A stretch of 64,000 bases of DNA, taken from assembly GCA_002786065.1 (NCBI GenBank), contig NHNY01000008.1, forward strand, positions 248,001 to 312,000. Direction: 5' to 3'. Under the pieces are notes generated by a model. The model was not told where the DNA came from. It was given only the letters and a program-made list of their open reading frames with translations, and ran no database searches. Positions 12,940 to 31,700 of this stretch are shown piece by piece. This DNA comes from Microcyclospora pomicola. Its lineage: Eukaryota; Ascomycota; Dothideomycetes; Capnodiales. Position 1 is the stretch's first letter, and each line of letters begins with the position of its first letter. The position numbers and the translations under genes were made by a program.

Positions 12940-13009
12940 TACGGTGGGACATAACGAACTTTGGGTCACATCAGTTTTGAGTTCGCTACTTCCCGCTCGC
13001 GCCTCGCTT
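12940..13009 (+). repeat. Left terminal inverted repeat
   Basis: Seventy bases that match the reverse complement of 25143-25212 at 61 positions, starting TACGGTGGG. The longest shared block includes TTTGGGTCACAT. Beyond the repeat, both ends also share CATATGTACA about 105 bases in. Confidence 0.9.
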
Positions 13010-13346
13010 ACAATAATCATTTCGCAGTTCTGTAATAATAATCCATATGTACATTAGTAACCAAAGGCGGTGAAGGCCCAGAATAGTCCATTGGCAGCTT
13101 TCCCATCCATTTGTGTTTCTGTAGCTCTGTGACACAACCATCTTCAAACTATCAAAACATCGCTATCTTGAGTGGCATCATCATTGAGAACACGGTATGT
13201 ACAGTCTGTTAATGATGTCAATCCTTAAAGAGCATCGCCGCCCACCGAACCGACGCCCGCACCAAATTGTCATATGAAGGTTATCCTATCTCGAGTCTTT
13301 GGGGAGTCTCCCTTGTACCGATTGAACTGCTGCAAAAGATACGACA

Positions 13347-14849
13347 TGTACAATGGCACATAAGAAGAGAGGCTACGTGATTGCGAGGTCTAGGGAATAT
13401 AGATCAAAATTGATCTATATCCTAGCAGCAACTTGGCAAGAGCTTCAGGAAGGATACCAATGGCACTGAATGCAGAGAAGGCAAAGATTGGGACTGCACA
13501 ATCGCTGCAGGGAACCCCAAATAGCATAAGATTCGCTGGATTCTACATCCCCAGGTAAAAGCACTTGCCAACCTAGAAGCATTTCAGTGTGCTCCCTAAA
13601 TCTTGGCTTACGATGCTCGAGGTGAGGACAAGCGCTTATATAACGCGTACAAAAATGCGCTCTACCTAGGGCTAATAGAAAACCCCTAGAATAAGAGTCT
13701 ACAGGTCGATGCAGTTGGCAGCCCAGCAGAGATTCAGTAGCGCCCCCGAGTTTCCAATTCTAAGGGATAGCCGCAGTGCTAGCAAATATACGGCGTGTAC
13801 AATTCTGCTCCGAAGCTGCGGCTGCGTAGAAGCTCCTTGAAAGCAATTTCGACAGTCGATACAGTCGCCAGCCCAGCCGAGATTCAGCAACTCCCCTGAG
13901 TTTCCGGTTCTCGAGGGTAGCTACCAAACGAGCAGATATACGGTCTGCACAATCCAGCGGTCTAGCTCTGGCTGCGCAGAAGCTCCTTGAAGGCGAAATC
14001 CGACAGTCCACACAGTCGCCAGCCCAGCTGAGATTCAGTAGCTCCCCCGAGTTTCCACTTCTAGAGAACAATCGCAGGCCTAGCAGATATACGGTCTGCA
14101 CAATCCAGCGGCCTAGCTATGGTTGCGCAGAAGCTCCTTGAAGGCAGAATCCGACAGTCGACACAGTCGCTAGCCCAGCTAAGATCCAGTAGCTCCCCCG
14201 AGTTTTCAGTTCTAGGGGATAGCCACAAGGCGAGCAGATATACGGTCTGCACAATGCAGCAGTCTAGCTCCGGCTGCGTAGATGCTCCTTGAAAGCAGAA
14301 ACCGACAGTCGATACAGTGGCCAGCCCAGACGTGATTCGGCAGTGCCCCTGAGCTGCTGCTGGCTTGATCTAGTTGCGAGGCCAGCAATTGTACTATGCG
14401 CATCGTCCACAGCGCAAGACGCAGCAGCTACAAAGCCCTGTGATCTCAAGACATCAGGTTGCGCTACTTTCAAACCTAGCTGCAATTTAGCATTTCGCCT
14501 GGGTCGCTCCTTCAAGGTTCAAATCAGCAGGCCAGGAAATATACGGCGTGCACAATCATTGAGACATGAGATAGCTACGGAAACATTCGAGGATCAAACC
14601 TTTCTAGTACTACTAAGTTTCCAGCCTTGTAGCAATTCAGCATGTCTCCCAAAGAACATTTTGCGGCACAAATCGTGCGGCGTGCAAATATACCGCCTGT
14701 ACAAATCTTGCGCAGCGCTTTGAATTGATATCAATGGCATTTGACTGATTCATACTTGCTTTATAGACCTATCTTTTGCATCTCATTTGCTTAAGTATCT
14801 AACATCAACTTCCTCCACAGCATAGCTTCATTCGCCATACTTTCGGCAT
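13347..14849 (+). repeat. Satellite array 1, unit about 150 bp
   Basis: The units between about 13690 and 14340 are clearly alike. Each carries CAGCCCAGC-GAGATTCAG, then a CCCC-GAGTTTCC segment, then GATATACGG-CTGCACAATC and AGAAGCTCCTTGAA. Flanking units are degenerate but keep the TGYACAA mark at a spacing of 148-152. I see no credible gene. The unit length equals the short mode of the element-wide grid. Confidence 0.85.
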
Positions 14850-15194
14850 GTACATTTCTCACTTATTGACAGCCCCAGGCTAGTAAGCAATTACTTATTA
14901 TGCATTGGTTCAGTTCACTTGCTAACTATTGTCCACTGTAGTCATCTTCAGTTTATTGTCTTAGCTGATGTGGTCACTTGCGTTCTGCACATAAAACACC
15001 TGTGATTGTTCACGCTTAAACTCCGCGCTTCTCTTTCTTTCTTCGACATTCCTTTCGACAACATCTTCTCCTCAACCTTCTCTCCACCTCACAAACACTA
15101 TCTGCTCTAACTTTGCTTAGCCATCCTACTGCGAGCTAGCCCCAATCCTCCTAACGAATCCACGTGTACAAAACACCAGCAAGCAGCACTCAGC

Positions 15195-15936
15195 ATGGCG
15201 GTCCTCGACCTCAAGGCGCTCATTAGAAAGAAGAAGGTCAGAAATGAGTACCGGCCACATCTTCACATCAACGGAAACAGGGTATGTCTTTATTCACTCC
15301 GGCTGATAAATTCAGGCTGACATTGTACAGCTACAAGAGCTTGGAGTTACGCTGAATGAGGATCAGATTTGGCTGTTGGCGCAGAACGAAGGACAACCAT
15401 TTGAAATTCGTCAGGACTGTCAGGATACTTTCGCGAGCCTCGACTGCAGCCGTTTGAACTACCAAGATGCATTGATCGTCCAGAGTCGGTATGTACAACT
15501 CTTTCGCAATGTTCTGAATACAGCTAACCTTTGTTATTATAGTGGAACCTAGGAGGAGGACTTCTGTCATTGCTGTGAACCATTGTTTAAAGGCTCGGTA
15601 GATGACAAGGCTGTTCAGCGCAAACGCAAAGGCCCATTCAGAGTATGTTCAACGATTCTACATGTACAATGGCGCGCTGACAGTGTGTAGACTTGCAAGG
15701 TCTTCGAAGGCAATCTTGACAATGCATGTGGAAATTGTATTTGGGTTGGTGACAAGCCATCGTGTGAGCATTCCAACACCTACAAGGCTGCGGAGGAAAA
15801 GAAAAAGCGTGAACAAGAGAAGTTAGACAAGGTGGCGAAAGACAGAGCGGCGCGGTATGAAGCCAGGAAAGGAAACTTGGAGGAGGGTTTGTCCAACTCT
15901 AGCGGCAAGCGCAGGGAAACTGGAGGAGGCTCTTAG
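15195..15936 (+). pseudogene. Small Cys-rich DUF3716-like gene, copy A
   Basis: Four exons can be laid out by comparison with copy C: 15195-15281, 15331-15488, 15543-15642 and 15691-15936. The introns end in ATTGTACAG and begin GTATGTACAA, both formed from the grid word. The product would carry CHCCE, then GPFR-TCKVFEGNLDNACGNC, the paired-Cys pattern that I recognise as resembling DUF3716, followed by a Lys/Glu-rich coiled tail. An in-frame TAG (15550-15552) lies three codons after intron 2, so this copy would make only the N-terminal part. Function unknown. Confidence 0.65.
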
Positions 15937-16771
15937 GTGCTCAAACAGAGATGTGGGCTTTACAGACGGTTTGTGCATTTGCATTCTAGGTTGAAGACAG
16001 TGGATGACCTTGACGAGCAGGTCAAATCGGGGAGTTGCTTTTTCAGTTGGCCTCTGGACTTTAAAAGTAATATGTTATGATCTCAGCTGTCTCCCTTACT
16101 TCTCGCCGTTTGTTTCCGAATGTACAAAATGTATTATAGCCCCTAGCTATCAGGACCGTAAGATGGAAAGCACTTGTATTAAGGTCTTGCTACTCTACAA
16201 TCGAGGCTAGGTGTATTTTGTCTAGCATCATCAAAGCCTCGACCTAGGTCTTTGGAATGTTTGGCTGGAATTACGAGCTGCACAACGCTAGCTAACCTGC
16301 AAAACGACTATTATAGTGGAATATCTCAACACACTTGGTGGAGTGCTTGATATACCTCGATCACATCTGAGCTTCAATGTTGGGACTCGATAGCAATCCT
16401 AACCCTCTCCAGCGCCACAGAATCACCACGTACAATACAATCGCGCTTAGCTGAAGCCATAGCAATGCTTTTCAATCATTTTGAGGTCGTCGTCACTCAC
16501 TCAGCAAGATCATGCTCACTTCAGCATCAGGATCACATGCACCTCACTTGCACAAGTTCAACGTAAGCCATTGTCTTTAGCAGGCAACAGTTTGCACATG
16601 CACAATTCTTTGTTCATCCGCTAACACACTAAAACCGTCCTCGTCCCTCCGTTCTTCAGTTCACTCAAACTTAGACCTGACAACATTTGGTCTACCTCTT
16701 TCACACACCTTACATCTTCTAACACCTTGCAACCCTCGGTTTCCACCAGTACAACGTCTTCACAAAGCGCT

Positions 16772-17552
16772 ATGCCTGCAGACGCTTCTAAACTCGTCGC
16801 TATGATTCGAAACCAGCAAGGTGAAGAGGAATATGTGCTTGTTGTAGATGAAACGCGTGTACGTTCAAGAGCCGATCGTTTCCATACCCACATAGCAGAG
16901 CGCTGACATTGTACAGCTGAACAATGTAGGGCTCAATCGCAGTCGCAGTCAGCAAGAAGTTCTAAAAAAGCGAGCTCAGCCTGTCGCTCTTCGGAACCCA
17001 GCCAACTTCCGCAAGGACACAATACAGAATCGGGCAAGTCATGTCGATGCATTGCTCATCTAGAGTCGGTATGTACAATCTCTTTTAACTGCGGAGCCGG
17101 GAGAACATAGCTGACTGAAACAGTGGAAAGGTTGCAAAGTCAGGAGAAAATCAGATGAACTGCAAGAGATGTGGAGAAGAAAGAGGGCTCTTTGAGGTAG
17201 ATGCATTCTGCTTTCTAACTGTACAATGATTGCTAACCTTAGAAAGGAGTGCAAAACCAGAGATGGGACCTCAAAACATGCCTGTGGAAACTGTACCTTT
17301 AACAATCAAGCCACACAATGCGAGTTTCTTAACAGCCGCCCTCTGGATCAAAGTGACCCTGTCGCTGGAGGTTCTGTCTGTACAACTCGTTCTGGTCGTG
17401 AATCCAAGCCTTCAAAGCTAGCTGAAGGTGTTGTTCGGGATCCTGGAGCAAAGGAGATTCAAGCAATTCGAAGTGGTAATAACAGCAGGGCTTTGTCTCA
17501 GAGGGAGTTGCAAGAGGAAGAGGATGAGCAGCAGAGGAACACCCAGTTTTAG
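16772..17552 (+). pseudogene. Small Cys-rich DUF3716-like gene, copy B
   Basis: The exons are 16772-16858, 16917-17068, 17124-17196 and 17247-17552. Exon 1 has 29 codons, the same as copy A. The Cys motif is NCKRCGEERGLFE-ECKTRDGTSKHACGNCTF, followed by a longer tail (CTTRSGRESKPSKLAEGVVRD) shared with copy D. An in-frame TAG at 17061-17063 sits where copies A and C have CAG or CAA. The fourth exon needs an acceptor ending AAAG. It pairs with copy D, as A does with C. Confidence 0.6.
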
Positions 17553-17675
17553 TGAACATGCTGCAGCTCTAAGTTATGGGTTTGATTAAGGGGTTTGGTT
17601 TCTTGAGGGAGTTTGGTGTTTTGGAGCTTCAGGTTCAATAAGGCTTCTATAAAGATCCTAAATCATATTTCGAGA

Positions 17676-18755
17676 TGTACAATGTTGAAGCAAGTCTTTG
17701 AATGACATTTCAAACTGTCTGCTACAGGGTATCTACTGACATATATATATGGTCTTCTATCAAAAGGGGTGAGCTTAGCTGAAATTGAGCAGCTCCCCTG
17801 AGTTTTTAGGACCAGAAGACAGCCACAAAACGAGCTAATATACGGTCTGTACAATCGCGTTCCCAAGCTTTGACTGCGCAGAAGCTCTGTGAACAAAGAA
17901 CGGAAGGTCGATACAGCCGCCAGCCTAGCTGAGATTCAGCGGCCCCCCGAGTTTCCGATTCTCGAGGGTAACTACCAAACGAGCAGATATACGGTCTGCA
18001 CAATCTAGCGGTCTAGCTATGGCTGCGCAAAAGCTCCTTGAAAGCAATTCCGACAGTCGATACAGTCGCCAGCCCAGCCGAGATTCAGCAACTCCCCTGA
18101 GTTTCCGGTTTCAGAGAACAATCGCAGGCCCAGCAGATATACAGTCTGCACAATCCATCTGTCCAGCTGGGGCCGCGCAAGAATCCTCTGAAGCAGAATC
18201 TATGGGTTATTGGATTCGGCATCCTAGCCAAGATTCAGCAAGTTCCCTGTCTTTCCAATTCCAGGAGATGATCGCAAGGCCAGCAAATATACGGACTGCA
18301 CAATCTGGCGCTTTTGCTTGAGTCATACTAAAACCCTGCAAAAGACGGCCAGTGGGTTACAGCAGTTAGTAGTCTAGAAGCAATCTAGTATTCTTCCCAG
18401 ATCACATCTTGCTAGATCTAAGCCAAGGGCCAGCAATTATACTGCATGCACGATTGCTGGTCTGGTAGCAAGCAGGTCTAAAGTCTCTCAATCCAAAACT
18501 ACCAGCCTGACATAATCACCGACCCATCTTCATTTCAGCACTCTCCCTGGCTAGTTTATCACGAGTCCAAATCGTGCAGTAATAAATTTTACCGCCTGTA
18601 CAATGTTTGTTCGGCGTCAGCGCAAATCGATCATGTTCAGTTCCCCAACTTTCACATCACATGAGTATACAGCCCAACAACATTTCTTGATATAGCTAAG
18701 TCACCTAATGCTGTCTTCGCTCGTAGCATCCTTTCATTCGGATGGCTTTCCAGAT
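17676..18755 (+). repeat. Satellite array 2, unit about 150 bp
   Basis: The units match those of array 1 (GAGATTCAGC, CCCCTGAGTTTCC, GATATACGG-CTGCACAATC), best conserved between about 17760 and 18340. Mark spacing is 149, 150, 150, 150 and 151 across the core. It opens the second gene module. Confidence 0.85.
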
Positions 18756-19092
18756 GTACAATGTGTGCCTCGATGACTGCCTTCTATCTACGTCAGACAA
18801 CTTAGTTCTCATCTCGGCGGTTCACTCGCCACCCTCCTCGTTCACTTCTACTTCAATGCGACTGTTCACGAGCCTTGTGACACACGCTCGTCACCTGCAG
18901 TGCGCATATGACAAAGATCGCGTTGTTCAGGCAGCAATCAAGGCTATTTGATCTATTCCTTTGTCATTTACTACATCAACACCTCTCCCCCAATATCTTC
19001 TCCACCTTCTAACAACAATCATCTCCAAGCTTCCTCGATCTTCCCACTCCACAACAGCTCCCCAACCCTCACGAAATCCACCTGTACAAAAG

Positions 19093-19709
19093 ATGGCGCC
19101 TACTTTCCAGGAAGACGATTCCCTTGACTATGGTCTTGACCATCTGTTCAAGAAGGCTGAAGATAATTTTGGTGTAAATGTACTGGATCTGAGGAAGGAT
19201 GAGGTACGTTCTTTTACAGAGCTCAGCAGGCAAAGCTAACATTGTACAGATCCAAAATCTTGGAGTTCGCCTCAACGATGAGCAGAAAGCAGCGTTGCTC
19301 GCGAACAAAGGGAAATTCGTCCGCTGCCATTCCAGCAATGTCCCAACTATGAAGCCTGGCTCCAAGAACTTCGTCAACGCATTGATCGCGCAATCACGGT
19401 ATGTACAATTTACTCCACTAGTAATGCGCAGGACTAACTCGCTTCAGTGGCGAGAAAATGATATCAGAGGTCTGCACCTGTTGTGAGGAGAAGGCAGTGA
19501 CTTTCAGCTGGCATGATAGGCAGACTCGCTTAACTCATGGCCCATTCGAGGTAAGACTAAAGAATCCTGCTGTACAATCATTGCTGACAAGAATGTAGCA
19601 CTGTCACGCTATCGAAGGCTTTGCGGATGGTGCCTGTGGAAACTGTCTCTGGACTGATGACGGGTTTTTGTGCAGCCGGTCTGGCTATCAGAAGACTCTG
19701 CAAGGATAA
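19093..19709 (+). CDS. Small Cys-rich DUF3716-like protein, copy C (intact)
   Basis: The four exons are 19093-19203, 19250-19398, 19448-19550 and 19599-19709, giving 157 aa with all joins in frame. The N-terminal half holds GVRLNDEQKAALLANKGKFV, shared with copy A. The C-terminal half holds CTCCEEKAV, then GPFEHCHAIEGFADGACGNC, a probable zinc-binding Cys/His cluster of the DUF3716 kind. Intron 1 ends ATTGTACAG, intron 2 starts GTATGTACAA and intron 3 contains TGTACAAT, each on the grid. It is the only one of the four copies without an internal stop. A DNA- or chromatin-binding role for the element is my inference. Confidence 0.7.
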
Positions 19710-20680
19710 AGAGGAAGCTGTACAAAGCGGTTCCGACGTGCTGCAGAGAGAGAACATGGGACAACTGCAGTCCAGCTTAAAGACAATGGAGTAGGACATA
19801 GAGGCTTTCAGGTCCTCCTAAAAAGTTTGGAGTAGGGTGTTTGGAGTTTGGGTTGGAAAGCTGCCGACAGCTACGAGAGCATATTGTGCATGCTTCTTTT
19901 GCTAAGATGCAGCCCTGTTCCTTTCAAACCAGGCATCTCTGGGAAACGGACCTTTTGCTTGGGCTTTGTGCTTCCAGTGGTATAATCAAAATGTTTATGT
20001 GGGTTTTGAGAGTGTTCTAAATTGTCTTTCCAAATGTACAAAGTGCATTGTATGTGATCTCAGCCGAAGTGGATCATTAAGTTGGCGAGCAATTGAGACT
20101 TTCTGGAGGACAGACACGGTATATTCGAGAGCTTTTCAAACGCCTTAACATTGGTGGCGAGCATGCACAGAAAGAAAACGAACTTGTACACTGTTAAAAG
20201 AGCTACGAACGATGCTTTGGTTGGCAGGAGCTTTTGAGACCAATTGACAGCAGATGGAGTTGATATCTTACTCAGACCATTCTCCATAGTCACTTACAGA
20301 AAACATGACCATCTCAAACCACTGCGCGCTTCAAGGTTTTAAAATGTACAAATCAGCGCAATTCAGAATCGCCGCGTAAATAAATAGCTTCTGCTGATCG
20401 TCAATCGTCGTATTTCACTTCACAGCTTCACTTCCTTTGTTCTAGCTAGGCTGCACATGTCAGGTGAAGAACATTCCATTGCCAGCTACCGCCATTAGTT
20501 TGCATATGCACAAAGAGCTGTTCACTGCTGACGAGACACACAACTGTCTATTTTCTTCTGACTGCTAATCTTCCTTACTTGCTACACGAAAGCTTCTACT
20601 ACCAAACTTCTACATCTCTTACTTCTACCAACTATCGAGAGTTGGACATTTCCACCAGTACAAACAACGCACAAGCCACG

Positions 20681-21453
20681 ATGCCGTTCACGCCTTAATC
20701 CCTACTCGATGTGCCGGAACTGACTGGAGAAGATGAGCTTGTTCTTGCTGTGACGAAGAAAAGGGTGAGTGGCGTTCTAGGGCTTTTCTGCTATATATCC
20801 TATGTCTGATAAATTGTACAGCTGGAAGATGCGGGATTCAATCTGAATAGCCGCCAGGAAGAGATGTTCAAAGGCCTAGACTATCTTGTCTTTCTTCGAC
20901 ACCCAGAAGATTTCGATCTAGACACTATTCGCAATCGTGCCAGCCATATCGACGCACTGATCATCTAGAGTCGGTATGTACAAAGTTTTCCGCATCTCAG
21001 CAACTCAGAGGCTAACCGAAAGCCACAGGGGAAAGATCGCGAAGCATGACAAAGTGGCAGTGGAGTGCTTAAGATGTGACGATGGAAAAGGACATTTCAA
21101 GGTTTGTAAACCACCGTTTTCGAGCTGTACAATAAAAGCTAACCGCTGATCAGCAATGCGCCACTGTAGCCGGGAAGACAAACACAGCTTGTGGAAACTG
21201 CACCTTCAATAACCAAGCCTCGCTATGTGTTTTTCCAAACCACAGCCTGCTAGACAACAGCGACTCTTTAGCAGAAGCAAGCAGCTGTACAACTCGTTCC
21301 GGGCGAACTGTCAAGCCTCGCCAGCTTGCGGATGGGGTGGTTCGGGATCTAGGAGCGAAGGAGATCCAGAGTCTTCAGCGTGGCAGGAGTTCAAGAGAGG
21401 CGGCCAAGGAGATCAGCAACATCTCTAATGACAGCCGTGACAATCTTTTCTAA
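20681..21453 (+). pseudogene. Small Cys-rich DUF3716-like gene, copy D
   Basis: The exons are 20681-20764, 20822-20973, 21029-21101 and 21154-21453. It matches copy B closely: ASHIDALII, then ECLRCDDGKGHFK-QCATVAGKTNTACGNC, then CTTRSGRTVKPRQLADGVVRD. Two stops lie in frame. One is near the start codon (TAA at codon 6); the other is a TAG at 20966-20968, the same codon as in copy B. The sixth-codon stop makes a full product impossible from this ATG. Confidence 0.6.
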
Positions 21454-21753
21454 AGGTACAATCAGGTGCAATTAGGAAAGAGGCATGGAACATACATTAT
21501 GGAGTGATACAATGGAGGTAGAGAAGGAAAGTACGAGTGTTTTATTGGTGTAGGTTTGGTCAGTAACTTCGAGATAAGAGCTGTACAATAAGGTTTCAGC
21601 CTCAAAACAGATCTTGAGCTGCTAGCTTCCATCTTTGATTCAGATGCAAAACCACAACATTACTACTGGACTTTGTCTAATCAGTTGAGAAGTCCATCAA
21701 TTCGCTACTTCATTTCACTGTTCGTCTATTGTACATCTTAAAACAATACAGCA

Positions 21754-23499
21754 ATGGCTCCAAATACGCTGATTGACCCGACGTTCCATGTGGAGCTTTG
21801 CGACCGATTCCAAAATCAAGGCGCTACATATAAAGCACTTCAAACCTGGCTTTTCCAATGCGGTATAACAGCTTCCACGTGTACAATCAAACGCACCATC
21901 GCAAACCTTGGAGCGCAGAAGAACAAATCGAATCCAGACACGCCATTTCTCCGAGTACTTATTAGTACCTTGTTCTATGTGGATAACCAGTCGGACAACG
22001 AAATAGTGGAGAGCCTTCAATCCCAAGCCAATATTGTAGTCAAACCGTGGAGGATTGTACAGATCAGAAAGGCTATGGGCTTGGTAAGAAGACTACAAGC
22101 AGACCAAATAGCAGAAAAATCAGAGATGATGAAGGACATCATCCGTAAAGAGCTTGATAAAGGGGAGGTTACACTTTATGGCCGTACATTCATGATTGCG
22201 TATTTGAAGCGTCATGCTAGCCTGCACATCTCAAGGCATGCTCTAGTTACAAAATCAAAATCTACACATACTAATGATCTTGATTAGGCATACATTGGAT
22301 CGCCTTTTGCGCGACCTTGACCCAAACGGCGTGTACAATAGACGTAATGTTGTAGACAACCGTCGGGGCAGATATATAACCTCTGGTCCAAACGCTGTAT
22401 GGTCTATCGACGCGCATTGTAAGCTTGAAGAGTTCGGCATCCAGATCTATGCTGCAATCGATGCCTACTCAAGAAAGGTAATATGGACATATTGCGGAAT
22501 TTCGAGCCGTACATCAGTGTCTGTACTAGCACAGTTCGTCAATGTGCTTGATACACTTCGGGTAGCACCAAAAGTTGTACGGTCAGACAAGGGAAAGGAG
22601 GTACTGCTAATGGCAGATGCTCAGTTTACAAACGCTAAATCGATGCGTACAAACGACATAGCGTTTCGCGATTGCTATGTCTTTGGCACTAGCACATCCA
22701 ATCAGCGTGTTGAATCGTGGTGGAATCAATTAAGTGGAAGATCGCTACAGGTCTGGCGTGTAAGTAAAGTCTGATTTGAGCTGCAGCCCTAGCAAGATCT
22801 GACATGTACAATTGATGTTATAGATACTGTTCCGGAGATATGCTACAGAAGGCTTGTACAACAAGAATCTCGCTGCTGACCGTATCGCACTACTCTACAT
22901 CTATATGCCAGTACTTCGTGGTATTGTGAAGCGGTTCACAACGATGTGGAATGTACATCCGATCCGGAAGCAAACTAACCGGCCTTGGGTCAAGGCTGGG
23001 AAGCCAGAAACCCTATATGCTGACACTACTGTTGTGGATTGTGGGTGTCCGGTTGACGCAACTCTGGTAGCTAATTTGCGCTGCGCGTGCGAGGGTTTCG
23101 GTATGTACAAAACATGAACTAGCGGTTATAGACAGACTAAATTTCTGACATGGTAGGCAAATCTTAGATATGGACGAATACCTTCCAGATACAACTATGA
23201 GCTTTTGTGAAAGTTTGCTGCAGCAACAGGGTATTTTGTATCAGCCAGCCGATGCGATGGCTTTTGTACAGTCGGTATCAATGCGCAAACACGAGCAAGG
23301 GTTTCGTGTTCTTCAAGAAGCGCTTACAGAGTACGTGCTGCACAATCCTACAACACCCTTGTTGGAGACCAGAGCTCCATACGGAGGATTAATGTGGGGC
23401 ACGGTATCAGAGCCCGTAATGGCGGTGTACAACGAGATTGTGCGAGCCCCGCACAGTGCTCAAGCTTTTGAAATGCTACCTGATCGATTCGATATATAG
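21754..23499 (+). CDS. Transposase with integrase-type DDE core
   Basis: The four exons are 21754-22235, 22288-22759, 22824-23100 and 23168-23499, giving 520 aa. The N-terminal half looks like a helical DNA-binding region: a helix-turn-helix-like TYKALQTWLFQCGITAS-TIKRTI, then a second around DNEIVESLQSQANIVVKPWRIVQIRKAMGL. The catalytic core follows with GPNAVWSIDAH (Asp 1), KVVRSDKGKE (Asp 2) and GTSTSNQRVESWW (Glu), then HPIRKQ. Intron 1 is a GC-AG intron (GCATGC to GATTAG, branch TACTAATGA). Intron 3 starts GTATGTACAA on a grid mark; its acceptor must be CTTAG at 23167, because the nearer TAG gives a stop. All three catalytic residues are present, so it may be active. Confidence 0.85.
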
Positions 23500-23603
23500 T
23501 TGGGTAAAGATCTTGATTTCTCATTTCCAAAGGTCAATTGCACAATAGTCAAGCACAGTCTCACTTCAAACACTTTGTACACGCCGAAAACAACTTTTTC
23601 ATC

Positions 23604-24989
23604 ATGAAATTCTGGTGTCCAAGCCTCGCCTGCAAGGTAAATCCTGAGATCGACGACCACAGCACTCATTTCTTCATGATAGACCAATGTCCAGCTTGCG
23701 GACTTCGCAATCCGATTCCGCCATCAAATCGGCGTGTACAAAACTCGAAACACACAGCGCTCTCAAGAACAATGTCTCATGCTAAGGCAAACGTGATTGA
23801 TCTTGTGGACGATGACGAAGACACACCAGAGGCCGCACCAGCCCAGCAGGTCTACCAAGGCGGATTAGCAAACTTGCTCCAAAACAGATCAGCTGTACAA
23901 TCTAGTTACGATATGATCGCTCATCGTGACCGTGCCAATACAGTTAAAAAAACGATTTTGGATGCTGGCGCTGCACCAGTGTCTCAGCAAACCCAAAGAC
24001 CAGCTTTCGAGCCTTCAGCAACGATGTCAAAGCTAAATCTAACTGTATATTGCTTCATTGGACGCTACAATGTAGATTCTGAAGACGTGGATGGTCGCAG
24101 GACTTACAACTGGTTCAGACATGGTATGGTTGCGTAGAACCCTACCCTCATTTTCTGATTTATCTCGTCACTAAATGCCACTGTACAATCTTAGACACAG
24201 CCGAAATGGGCAGCATCAAAGACTTCAAGTCACACAATTGGGGACATTTTCTCGAAACAATATCCGAGGAATTCGATCTCTATTCCTTCGTACACCACAA
24301 AGACAACAGTCGAATCTTCGCAAGCCTCATGTACAATCCAGCAGGGAGACAGCCAGATCCGATAAGAGTTCAAGAAAGGGTATTCAGAGATACTACTCTC
24401 TCGGAGCTTCTGCAGCATGACTTCAAGACTGACAGAAAGAAGAACTACAACATTTGGATATTCTGTGAGCGTCCTGAGCCTGGAAACGCACTGCACAATG
24501 AACTAGAAGTTGAATACAAGGAGAAACCAAAGCCTGTGACTACCAAAGCCTCGAAAAAGGACCAGAATTCAAAGCCAAAGGCGAAGCCTAAGAAGAAGTC
24601 TGCACCCAGCCAAACAGTCAAGCAAGAAGATAATGTACGTGTACAATCGATGATTGAATGAGACTGCTTGTGATTGATTCATATGTCACAGAACACAGCT
24701 GTGAAAGCTGAGCCAAGCCAAGAGCTTGCACTGGGTTTGACTGAGAGCCCTACAGCCAATCTTCCAGATGTTGGTCTATTCGTCAAACAAGTATTTGAGC
24801 TGTACAACTCTCTCTCCGTCGCATCATGTACTGACTATCATCTAGAACACCCTACCGAATAGATTATACAAACGCTCAATGTCAGACTTGACTATCTCAC
24901 CACCGCGCGAAAATGATGATTTTGGCTTCGATATGGACGCTTATCTTGCCCCTGCTGATTGTACACGTGGTAAAAAGAGTCGTCGGTGA
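23604..24989 (+). CDS. Second transposon protein: Cys pairs, SUMO-interaction-like motif, Lys-rich tail
   Basis: The four probable exons are 23604-24123, 24195-24634, 24692-24801 and 24863-24989, giving about 398 aa, all in phase. It begins with Cys/His pairs (WCPSLAC, HFF, CPAC). Next comes VIDLVDDDED, a textbook hydrophobic-plus-acidic SUMO-interaction-like motif. A globular middle follows (NWGHFLETISEEFDLYSF, RIFASLMYNPAGRQPD). The tail is very basic (KPKAKPKKKS), and the last exon ends GKKSRR. Intron 3 starts at a grid mark (CT|GTACAA); if it is not used, the protein stops at 24862. I do not recognise a family. An accessory DNA- or chromatin-binding transposition protein is the most natural guess. 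Confidence 0.65.
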
Positions 24990-25142
24990 TTTTGGCGGGT
25001 CAGTGCTTGCAATGACTCTGAAGTGCAAATCTTCGTTCTGTATGCGAAGGGCAAAGACTGGGAACACGTCACGTGTGGCAGAATGATAGCAGTGTTTTGT
25101 ACATATGCTTACGTATCACGAAGGGGGTGGTTGAAATATGAC

Positions 25143-25212
25143 AAGCGAGACGCCAGCGGGAAGTAGTGAACCCAAAACCGATGTGACCCAAAATCTGTTA
25201 TGACCCACCGTA
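25143..25212 (-). repeat. Right terminal inverted repeat
   Basis: Reverse complement of the left repeat with 61 of 70 identities. It ends CCCACCGTA at 25212. The last grid mark ends 109 bases inside this end, mirroring 108 at the left. Confidence 0.9.
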
Positions 25213-28781: not shown

Positions 28782-31700
28782 GTCGTTAGTATCTATCACT
28801 GTCATCCTCAGGCAGCCTTTACCACCTGGGACGATGTTCTCGCTCAAGGTCCAACCATTCTGGCGAAGTTTGAAGAGTTTCGTCGCACGAAACAGGTAGC
28901 ACTCCATATTATGAGAAGATTGATACTCACTGACGTGCGTGCAGATCACTCGCAATCCTTTCATCTTGATTTGCCATGGCCTTGGCACGGTCGCCATAAA
29001 GCAAGCTCTGGTCTATGCCAAAAGAGAGAACAGCCACCACGATGCCCTGTTCGAGGCTTTGCAAGGATTGATACTCCTGAGCATTCCACAGGTCTTTGAG
29101 AAGGTACAGCAAGATGGCCACGCGTCTCTTGGACACCTGATCTTCAGTAACAAACAGCGAAGAGATAGTCACAGCAAAGACGATTTGCGAGCTCTGAAAC
29201 AACTTTACTCTCTGTTCCAGGACCTGGCATTAGATATTCCGATCCTGTCAAACCTCGGAACAAAGGTTGCCTCAAATCGTGATCTCGGACTGTTCAAGGT
29301 GCACAAGGTTCAGCAATGCTTCGCCGTGGATGGCTACCTGGAAGAGACTGATTGTGATAGCCTCCGGGTCAAGATTGTAGTGGATTCCGGTCGCTGTGCC
29401 ATGGATAATGCCAGTCATTGCAGCTCGCAGCTGGCAGGGTTTGTGAAAAGATGCTTGAATCCATCTGATGCAACCACGACCTCAAAGGCACCCTCTGTTG
29501 ACACGCAAGCACCGCAAAACGTTGTCGATCTTGGTATTGATGTTTCAAGCCATTCGATGCAGCGAGAGATCTCTCGAAACGACGACGGGGACAATTCCCA
29601 GTCGCTGATTCCTGATCCCGCTGTCTCACAATCCTCGATCATGCCCGAGACTACTCCAGTCAGACCAGAGCACGACAGTCACGACTTAGATGCCCCAAAG
29701 CTCAATCTTCCGTACCACTATATGGACCCGGAGGTTCTGCTGGACGACTTTTTCCAGCGTGAAGACGTCTTTGGGCAGATAGACAATGCGTTTTCCTCGG
29801 GTGCAGCTTCTGATCCATCGGGTGCCACGATCGACTACGTAGCGCTTCATGGTATCGGCGGCATCGGTAAGAGTTCCATCGCCGCCCAGTATTCGGAGAC
29901 TCGCAAGGCCGAATTCGACACGACGTTGTGGGTACGTGCGGACTCTGAGGGCAAGATCATCACAGCTTTCAATCGCATCGCCGTAAAACTCGGGCTGGTT
30001 GATTCGAATCAAATCGAAGATCTCCTGCTCAGGAGAACGATCGTGCTAGATTGGCTGGAAGATCCCAGTCGTGTTGTCCGCAAGTCCAGATCCGGACAAC
30101 ACCAGCGTGCACGTTGGCTCCTGGTATTCGATAACGTGGAAAGCATGGATGTCTTGAAGAAGTACTGCCCCAAGAAGGGGGGAGGGTCCGTCATCGTCAC
30201 AAGCCGTAACCCTCTGATAGCGTGGACCAAGCTTCGAAGTATGAACACGCTTGGAATAGAGATCAATGCCTTCTCGCAAAAAGCTGCTTGCGAATTTCTG
30301 CGAATGATCGCTCCTGAAGCAGAGACCTCCAAGCACCCAACAGCTGTTGAAGAACTAGCGGTAGCCTTGGGCGCTATGCCCTTGGCTCTCAGACAGATGG
30401 GTGAAAACGTTCGCACACGGCACATGACATTCGCTCAATTACTGGAAATCTATAAAGACGAGGCCGAACGCATCAATTTGCACCGCAAATATGTTTCGGC
30501 CAACTCCAGTTATGAGCACAACCTTTTCACTGTATTCAAGCTTGAGACGCTCCCAGACTTTGCTCTGATGGCGTTGAATATCATCTCTTTATTGGATCCA
30601 GATCACATCAAGGATGAGCTTCTCATGGTCGATAGCCCTGTTTCAGGTACCGCGACTTACCCGAGCAACAAACACGATTATTATGATGCTCGTGCCGCAC
30701 TCAGAGCGTCCTCACTTATCAAGATACACAAGGATGCAGACGAGATCAGCATCCACCAGGCAGTCCAAGACACCGTACGTGCTCACATGGGCAGGGAACA
30801 GTTAGTAGAAGCATTCGCAATAGCTTCGAAGCTGTTGTTGAACTCATGGCCAATGAAGGGCAGGATGTGGCATTTTGCAGTCAACCACTGGGAGGCTTGT
30901 GCGACCATCATGCCGCATATTGTGCGTCTGCATGATCTTTTTGTACCGAAAGACCGTGGCCAGATGTGGCCTAAACCAACCAAGCAGCTCGCTGAGGTGC
31001 TTGCGTTCGCAGGATGGCATCTTCACGAGCGGGGTGATCCTCATCAGGCAAAGGTGCTACTCGATACTGCTGAGAAAATGTGCTCAGAGTACCTCGAAGA
31101 TGAGCAAGATCTGCTGTGCGAAGTCTGGAACAATCAAGGCTGTGTTGCAACTGTAACAAATGACCCTGAAGGATGTTTGTATTACAGCAAAAAATACCTG
31201 GAGGTCAAAAAGGCCGCTGCAGCTGCAGACAACGATGATCTGGCTATAGCGTTCAATCAGATGGGGATCGCATTACTCATGACCAAAGACAATATTGACA
31301 AAGCCAAACAGAACTTCGAATTGGCGAAAGCGTACTCCGAAATGCACAAGAAACGCTCTACGACGTCAGCGACAACTACCATGTTGGCTACGACAAATTT
31401 GGGCCTGGCATACTGGCTGCAAGAAGATTTCGGGGAGGCAGAGAAGATTCTCATGAATGCATATCGTCTCTACCAAGACAACACTAAACAGCTGCTCCCT
31501 GGAGAGAAGGAAAGTTTTGCGTGAGTACTCGTACACCAGCGTGCAGATCGAGACGTGGACTGACTGTGCCCAGCCCAGGGCGTCTTATGCACGCCATCGG
31601 CAACGTCAAGGTCAGTATGGGACTCGATGGTGATATTGGCCTGCTACAAGAAGGGCATGACTGGCATCGCCGTGCCCACGAGCATTATTTGAACAACATA

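Follow-up and report, generated by a model that had tools for sequence, protein, structure and literature searches.

The element and its motif lattice

The DNA analyzed here (the window) is a 64,000-bp stretch of the genome of Microcyclospora pomicola (contig NHNY01000008.1, positions 248,001 to 312,000), and contains a DNA transposon that is tiled from end to end with the hexamer TGTACA and its variants, here termed marks. The transposon starts with TACGGTGGG and finishes with CCCACCGTA, i.e. TACGG..CCGTA, and has 70-nt terminal inverted repeats (TIRs). Its target site duplication (TSD) is AGACAG, and two further complete copies in the genome (23.4 Mb in 58 contigs, searched for copies) are flanked by TACACG and CTGCGG, so that the duplication is of 6 bp in all three. 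According to the accessible text of two accounts, fungal IS3EU transposons have a 6-bp TSD, TAYGG..CCRTA ends, TIRs longer than 30 bp, an integrase-like DDE transposase and accessory genes (PMC12730594, PMC10045372). In a Pfam scan of 10 of the 37 open reading frames (ORFs) of at least 80 aa in the element, the transposase matched rva_4 (E 2.9e-17) and rve (E 6.6e-7), and its D-D-E residues line up with those of 14 relatives. Since termini, duplication and rva_4/rve transposase agree with the accessible part of the published description (PMC12730594), the window element appears to fit fungal IS3EU, of which it would be a new member. Six of the 36 matches to the transposase carried a species name, from Letharia, Tuber (two), Peziza, Kalaharituber and Oleoguttula. 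An earlier note on this DNA, made from the sequence by eye, had given the element the span of the lattice; that span stands for the lattice, and the real ends of the element lie slightly outside it (Table 1).

Table 1 Features of the transposon, in window coordinates
Feature	Position	Strand	Remarks
Whole IS3EU-type DNA transposon	12940..25212	+	12,273 bp; TIRs, ends, 6-bp TSD AGACAG on both sides
Left TIR	12940..13009	+	70 nt, 87% complementary to right TIR
Mark lattice	13048..25103	.	79 marks, core TGTACA, site ~WTTCSRNNTGTACAAT, intervals mostly 148-152, 158-162, 168-172 bp
151-bp satellite	13705..14329	+	4.1 copies; TGCACAAT mark variants in lattice register
Unit A gene, DUF3716-like Cys-rich protein	15196..15936	+	DUF3716 E 0.0031, below Pfam cut-off; start and introns by eye
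Unit B, DUF3716-like paralogue	16772..17552	+	E 0.00039, 20.7 bits against a cut-off of 22; start by eye
Second satellite stretch, 150 bp	17907..18180	+	register common with lattice
Unit C, unit A paralogue (49% DNA identity)	19093..19710	+	start and end by eye
Unit D, DUF3716-like, unit B paralogue (56% DNA identity)	20682..21453	+	E 0.00045, below cut-off
Transposase, several exons	21754..23499	+	rva_4/rve core, D-D-E; start and boundaries by eye
Second protein	23605..24661	+	Cys pair, acidic VIDLVDDDED stretch; start and exon structure provisional
Right TIR	25143..25212	-	partner of left TIR

Among the 6-mers of the element TGTACA has the strongest over-representation, with 51 exact copies against about 2.9 expected at flank density; the remaining 51,727 bp of the window hold 12. 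The earlier note had counted 50 exact copies and expected about three, so the excess stands and the count is corrected by one. A path laid through the element by dynamic programming, with steps of 135-182 bp as the sole constraint, comprises 79 marks (49 exact, 26 with one mismatch, three with two and one with three), and leaves two exact copies, at 22056 and 22855, off the lattice. Its score of 892 compares with 526 ± 14 (maximum 550) in 20 first-order Markov resamples and with 480-524 in four flank windows. This bears out both the proposed grid of 79 marks and the statement that the rest of the window has no like series. The first mark lies 108 bp inside the left end and the last 109 bp inside the right end. 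Among next-neighbour intervals of exact marks, 33 of 50 measure 130-185 bp, where uniform placements averaged 6.1 and never exceeded 18 (20,000 placements), and the periodicity check proposed at the outset returned a strong peak at 155.0 bp (power 24.3; null maximum 12.5 in 500 draws). As had been claimed, the marks run on regardless of content, through reading frames, splice sites, presumed promoters, introns, intergenic DNA, satellites and both terminal regions. Tandem repeats were reported in the element only at the two satellites of Table 1, and the element is not a satellite of whole units set head to tail. The lattice is confirmed as real, and is more pronounced than was first described.

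Spacing classes

The 33 exact-mark intervals fall at 138 bp (one), 148-152 bp (12), 158-162 bp (15), 168-172 bp (four) and 176 bp (one), with class means of 149.4, 159.9 and 170.0 bp and none at 153-157 or 163-167 bp. With the satellites and the paralogous units C and D removed, 22 intervals remain in the same classes, one of them in a gap, and their coherence (R=0.66) was reached by none of 20,000 smoothed-null draws. Because the space between the classes is empty, the spacing is quantised in steps of about one turn of the DNA helix.

In the accessible text of a study of nucleosome spacing, the commonest dyad-to-dyad distances of budding yeast are 151, 161 and 171 bp, and the nucleosome repeat of Aspergillus nidulans is quoted as 154 bp (PMC5807854). 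The classes of the element lie 1.6, 1.1 and 1.0 bp below these yeast values (PMC5807854), and on the strength of this match they may reflect a nucleosome register. The nucleosome-scale spacing that had been proposed is thus supported in its numbers, and occupancy of the marks by nucleosomes would be a further step. The companion suggestion that marks sit in linkers fits poorly, because a 147-bp core leaves about 3 bp of linker in a 150-bp step for a site of about 16 bp, which makes such placement unlikely for the 150-bp class. Another version offered in the earlier note, a protein that coats the element, could be combined with nucleosomes.

The extended site

The core TGTACA belongs to a longer, oriented site of about 16 bp, approximately WTTCSRNNTGTACAAT. 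The letters A or AT that had been seen to follow most marks are part of it; the site as a whole is longer and has a direction. Assigned by score, 39 exact marks point forward and 12 in reverse; the score includes the extension letters, and the oriented logo therefore leans towards them. The extension is also seen independently, in the unoriented logo and as low substitution at -8..-6 in one of the diverged copies (C28). CGG occupies positions -5..-3 in 18 of the 79 marks, where the element frequency would give 0.6 (hand calculation). Orientation of the marks does not account for the 150- and 160-bp interval classes.

Selection on the marks

At least six other copies or fragments are present in the genome (C7, C17a, C17b, C28, C40 and C56), and the fate of each mark was compared with that of words of the same letters as TGTACA that also hold CA and TG. 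TGTACA is intact at 29/51 places in C28, which is 73% identical to the window copy (control 12/98), at 13/31 in C17a (4/63), 9/20 in C40 (2/35), 44/51 in C17b (58/97), 23/30 in C7 (25/49) and 7/7 in C56 (7/15). In C28, the A/T positions of exact marks changed in 6 of 196 cases, against 1191 of 6143 elsewhere. The diverged copies retain marks at orthologous places, the very point on which the earlier note had staked its claim. The paralogous gene units within the element behave alike: measured against all words with the same letters, 6/6 marks are kept between units A and C (control 7/91), 4/6 between B and D (3/49) and 4/5 between A and B (6/40). Ten exact marks lie in the ORFs of the transposase (21880, 22332, 22952, 23265 and 23426) and of the second protein (23735, 23894, 24182, 24330 and 24640), and occupy all three codon offsets, with exon boundaries approximate and 24182 possibly intronic; the constraint therefore acts on DNA. 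These comparisons show that the marks are under selection at the DNA level.

Intervals between exact marks kept in both copies, with one mismatch allowed in the other copy, are unchanged in 41/47 cases in C17b, 25/42 in C28, 10/23 in C17a, 13/16 in C40, 3/6 in C56 and 25/27 in C7, so that conservation of the exact spacing is strong but not perfect. Several changes are near-helical or of about one unit, namely +31 and -153 (C28, C17a), -12 and +151 (C17b) and -11 (C7). In a stretch of C28 enlarged by 500 bp, one exact mark lies at 148 bp, and another mark, with one mismatch, precedes the next kept one by 149 bp.

A search of the genome with a pattern of three successive marks gave 44 forward matches (and 44 in reverse, the pattern being near-palindromic), all in copies of the element, against three and three for the reversed-pattern control. 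An oriented pair pattern gave 27 forward and 10 reverse matches (control five and seven); four of its sites (five rows) outside known copies, on contigs C3, C12, C34 and C45, look like chance.

Nucleosome-related sequence signals and RIP

The phase of WW dinucleotides (W, A or T) around exact marks outside the satellites was assessed with a 14-bp mask, as an earlier mask of ±8 bp took in part of the extension of the mark itself. Under the wider mask the near-10-bp phase is weaker than under the 8-bp mask, and partly one-sided. On the right side, at 14-55 bp, it was reached in 0/150 draws of both nulls, and on the left side at 0.013 against jittered marks and 0/150 against random places. The right-side phase persists in the single-copy subset (jitter p 0.02, random 0/150). 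No phase is seen around the weak marks taken by themselves, and beyond 55 bp from the marks the signal loses significance, many tests having been made. The WW phase lends at most mild support to a nucleosome register. Its maxima, which in the 8-bp-mask profile stand about 10, 20 and 30 bp away from the centre of the mark, would put the major groove of the core outward on a nucleosome.

In five of the six other copies, C-to-T change is strongest at CpA, as in repeat-induced point mutation (RIP); the exception is C56, with 0.287 at CpG and 0.268 at CpA. The TpA/ApT index is 0.81 in the window copy, 0.59-0.60 in the flanks and 1.23-1.70 in the six copies, and (CpA+TpG)/(ApC+GpT) is 1.32, 1.28-1.29 and 0.62-1.07, respectively. 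That the window copy shows little or no sign of RIP, being nearly clean where five of six other copies carry RIP-like CpA mutation, suggests that it is recent.

Genes of the element

Between 14700 and 21700 of the window, the transposon carries four paralogous gene units, in the pairs A/C and B/D, three of which have weak matches to DUF3716. An apparent in-frame stop was seen by eye in unit B, and unit D likewise appears broken by one. For unit C a single ORF was scanned, without a Pfam match, and the second protein matched no family above the cut-off. A sequence search of the Protein Data Bank (PDB) returned non-significant matches only, the best to ATRX (E 0.067), and one weak match to a viral contig (25%) was not used.

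Several marks appear by eye to be merged with splice sites (15324, 15492, 16910, 17072, 19243, 19402, 20815, 20977 and 23104). In unit A, 15324 forms a 3' site (TGTACAG) and 15492 a 5' site (GTATGTACA), and by the same inspection the 5' splice sites of the paralogous introns read GTATGTACA and the 3' ones TGTACAG, both built from marks.

Cousin elements in the same genome

Two cousin elements have transposases 48% and 45% identical to that of the window element. In the first (C1; L057 2540-7270), which has the 48%-identical transposase, the word CACTCG occurs 38 times within 4.7 kb and four times in the other 5.3 kb; in the form CACTCGC(A) it is found on both strands, irregularly, and same-strand copies form close pairs 10-12 and 21-23 bp apart. 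TGTACA is present once in this cousin and absent from the second (C11; L056 5034-9695), and accordingly neither has a TGTACA lattice. The Cys-rich proteins of the cousins are 44% identical to each other and, in a weak alignment, 19-28% to the DUF3716-like frames of the window; they gave no DUF3716 match in Pfam even at E <= 1, and searches with a cousin Cys-rich protein and a cousin second protein returned nothing at E <= 0.001. By analogy with motif-binding transposon systems, the comparison suggests that each family may pair a protein with a word of its own, and that only the TGTACA family may have adopted a nucleosome-scale lattice. Eight further, more remote transposase loci (L041-L048) were covered as stretches of about 2.6-3.5 kb; each contains 0-1 TGTACA, with 4-11 stops in the matched part.

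The C1 cousin is IS3EU-like, with a 57-nt perfect TIR, an apparent 5-bp TSD (by eye) and a Clr5 match on the transposase N-terminus. The C11 cousin also has a Clr5 match, and its Cys-rich gene is on the opposite strand.

What the lattice may be

The explanation we favour, although we hold it slightly less probable than its negation, is that the element is an IS3EU transposon with one specific protein-binding site per nucleosome along its whole length. The mark spacing would be the dyad-to-dyad distance of tightly packed nucleosomes, each presenting one mark in a common rotational setting, and an element-encoded, most likely dimeric, protein would read the palindromic core once per nucleosome. 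Candidates for such a reader are in the first place the DUF3716-like Cys-rich proteins, and alternatively the N-terminal domain of the transposase or the second protein. Such a reader would thereby tag the element's entire chromatin as self. The likeliest benefit may be that host silencing is countered or channelled, as it is by VANC in VANDAL transposons; alternatively, the long element might act as one cooperative unit for transcription or transposition. With a little more reserve, we would see here a self-address system, a helically quantised 150/160/170-bp register combined with an outward-facing site for the element's own protein on every nucleosome, whatever genes lie underneath. The dispersed word CACTCG of the first cousin is what one would expect if each family pairs a protein and a motif.

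A number of observations weigh against one reader site per nucleosome. Both the protein binding and the nucleosome occupancy of the marks are proposals made from sequence. Structure models of two candidate proteins, with mean pLDDT of 52.5 and 42.6, were not good enough for fold searching. The WW phase is not seen on the left side in the single-copy subset (0.37 and 0.24), and WW periodicity over the whole element is within the flank range. Some intervals have changed by amounts that are neither helical nor of one unit, i.e. +5, +8, -4, -141 and +500 (C28, C17a) and +6 (C17b and C7), together with many further changes of 1-3 bp, and the lineage-specific 500-bp stretch of C28 includes a markless gap of 375 bp. 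The word of the C1 cousin forms no nucleosome lattice, and TGACAAT occurs 10 times within the bounds of the C11 cousin, seven of them near the ends. Nor do the marks give immunity from RIP, five of the six marked copies being RIP-like, and in the five copies profiled RIP-type mutation does not vary with the distance to marks (bins at 0.89-1.16 of expectation; the single deviating bin is the sparse last one, with 58 sites, at 0.58). Within marks, CpA sites are mutated less: the six copies together have 64 of 364 changed, where TACA sites outside marks would lead one to expect about 102 (hand calculation). We considered this deficit as a footprint and do not claim protection by the marks, because C7 shows no deficit of RIP-type mutation in marks and the distance profile is flat.

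An alternative is a protein of the element that wraps, loops or bridges it at 14-16 helical turns, independently of nucleosomes, for example for compaction towards synapsis or as a filament. The extended site, the helical quantisation and the selection need only contacts on one face of the DNA, the bulk nucleosomal periodicity is not raised in the element, and the lattice is symmetric about its ends. With such a protein there is no explanation for the agreement, within 1.0-1.6 bp, between the classes and measured nucleosome repeats, and at its sites in genes it would presumably need to remain bound or else give way to transcription. We regard it as rather unlikely, yet deserving of serious attention.

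TG, TA and CA steps are flexible, and the marks could be nucleosome-positioning signals alone, a TG-TA-CA core at a fixed rotational setting without a dedicated binder. The closeness of the classes to nucleosome repeats and the WW phase near the marks speak for this. A near-invariant 6-bp core with an oriented extension to about 16 bp and its frequent CGG does not, and to our knowledge the extended mark is more specific than nucleosome positioning preferences; the loss of WW significance beyond 55 bp counts in the same direction. Positioning signals without a binder therefore seem an improbable account of the lattice. Even less probability attaches to the recognition word of a DNA-modifying enzyme, acting once per nucleosome (e.g. 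adenine methylation in ..ACAAT). The short, nearly invariant core, placed regardless of content, would be in keeping with it, against which no methyltransferase domain was found in the ORFs scanned with Pfam (10 of 37), and the upstream extension at -8..-3, which is part of the site, makes it longer than usual sites of modifying enzymes.

Two satellites of 150-151 bp in register with the lattice, and the difference of one 151-bp unit in C17b, might point to an ancestral tandem repeat of about 150 bp, of which the lattice would be a relic and TGTACA the slowest-decaying part. With the satellites set aside, any other 4-mer lying more than about 10 bp away from the marks is found at a fixed offset in at most 6 of 70 cases, the marks are selected in unique coding DNA and across paralogues, and steps of 150, 160 and 170 bp are not expected from one repeat unit; a relic is on these grounds largely refuted and very improbable. 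Sites that act in RNA have still less to commend them. UGUA-NNAU resembles PUF sites (UGUACAAU), and the 39 of 51 marks that point one way would agree with this, as opposed to the 12 of 51 that point the other way, the marks in presumed promoters, introns and both terminal regions, and a helical quantisation that has no evident meaning for RNA. Chance or an artefact of the first reading, contradicted by density, selection and quantisation as well as by the path score (892 against a null maximum of 550) and the periodogram (24.3 against 12.5), is refuted.

Comparison with known systems

Subterminal transposase-binding repeats, several short motif copies near the termini, are known from CACTA/EnSpm, hAT and similar elements; the marks described here span the whole element. 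CENP-B boxes give long arrays of alpha satellite one protein site in each nucleosome-scale unit. In that case the unit recurs as a whole, whereas in the window element it is just the site, about 16 bp long, that recurs within otherwise unique genic DNA.

The nearest likeness may be with the VANDAL transposons of Arabidopsis, whose transposase is Mutator-like where that of the window element appears to be of IS3EU type. As the accessible text of two reports has it, VANDAL elements carry a short family-specific motif in many copies, which is bound by the element-encoded protein VANC, and related families differ in motif (PMC5735166, PMC10398659). The window element shares with them the array of short family-specific motifs, mostly in one orientation and partly in tandem, with TGTACAAT here and CACTCGC in the cousin. 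As far as these reports go, VANDAL motifs are found chiefly outside coding DNA and in dense tandem repeats; the marks enter reading frames, with ten exact copies in the transposase and second-protein ORFs, and unique DNA, at helical steps of nucleosome-repeat size.

Termini, TSD, long TIR, an integrase-like DDE transposase and accessory genes are as in fungal IS3EU/GingerRoot elements. The accessible text of the two IS3EU/GingerRoot accounts makes no mention of a motif lattice (PMC12730594, PMC10045372); the window element has one, together with four paralogous DUF3716-like units. TET/JBP and alpha-kinase domains were not found in the 10 of 37 ORFs scanned. Linker quantisation has been measured statistically in yeast, to judge from the accessible portions of the studies concerned (PMC2522279, PMC5807854), where the distances of 151, 161 and 171 bp are between measured nucleosomes; here a sequence motif recurs at 149.4, 159.9 and 170.0 bp. 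Within the accessible open-access literature, no such motif arrangement was found. As far as can be told, the lattice is without known kind, although it would be VANC-like if every dispersed motif array is counted as such.

Should the register be nucleosomal, the element would be a natural record, selected in unique coding DNA, of obligatory nucleosome places, and a testable case of sequence-encoded nucleosome spacing and linker quantisation. If the reading as self-marking is true, sequence-specific self-marking by transposons would extend from plants to fungi, and self-marks could overlie entire genes together with their splice sites. An array of sites over 12 kb of a mobile element, helically phased and under selection, would be, by the accessible open-access literature, a new sequence organisation even if nucleosomes played no part.

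Surroundings of the element

The window genes outside the element are fungal in type (lipin Ned1, a histidine kinase and an NB-ARC protein). The last of these, an NLR-like NB-ARC/DUF7779 protein, is encoded at 28939-31524 of the window, 3.7 kb from the transposon. Two of the element fragments (L028 in C56 and L020 in C7) lie about 2.8 kb from contig ends, and are perhaps subtelomeric or beside assembly breaks.

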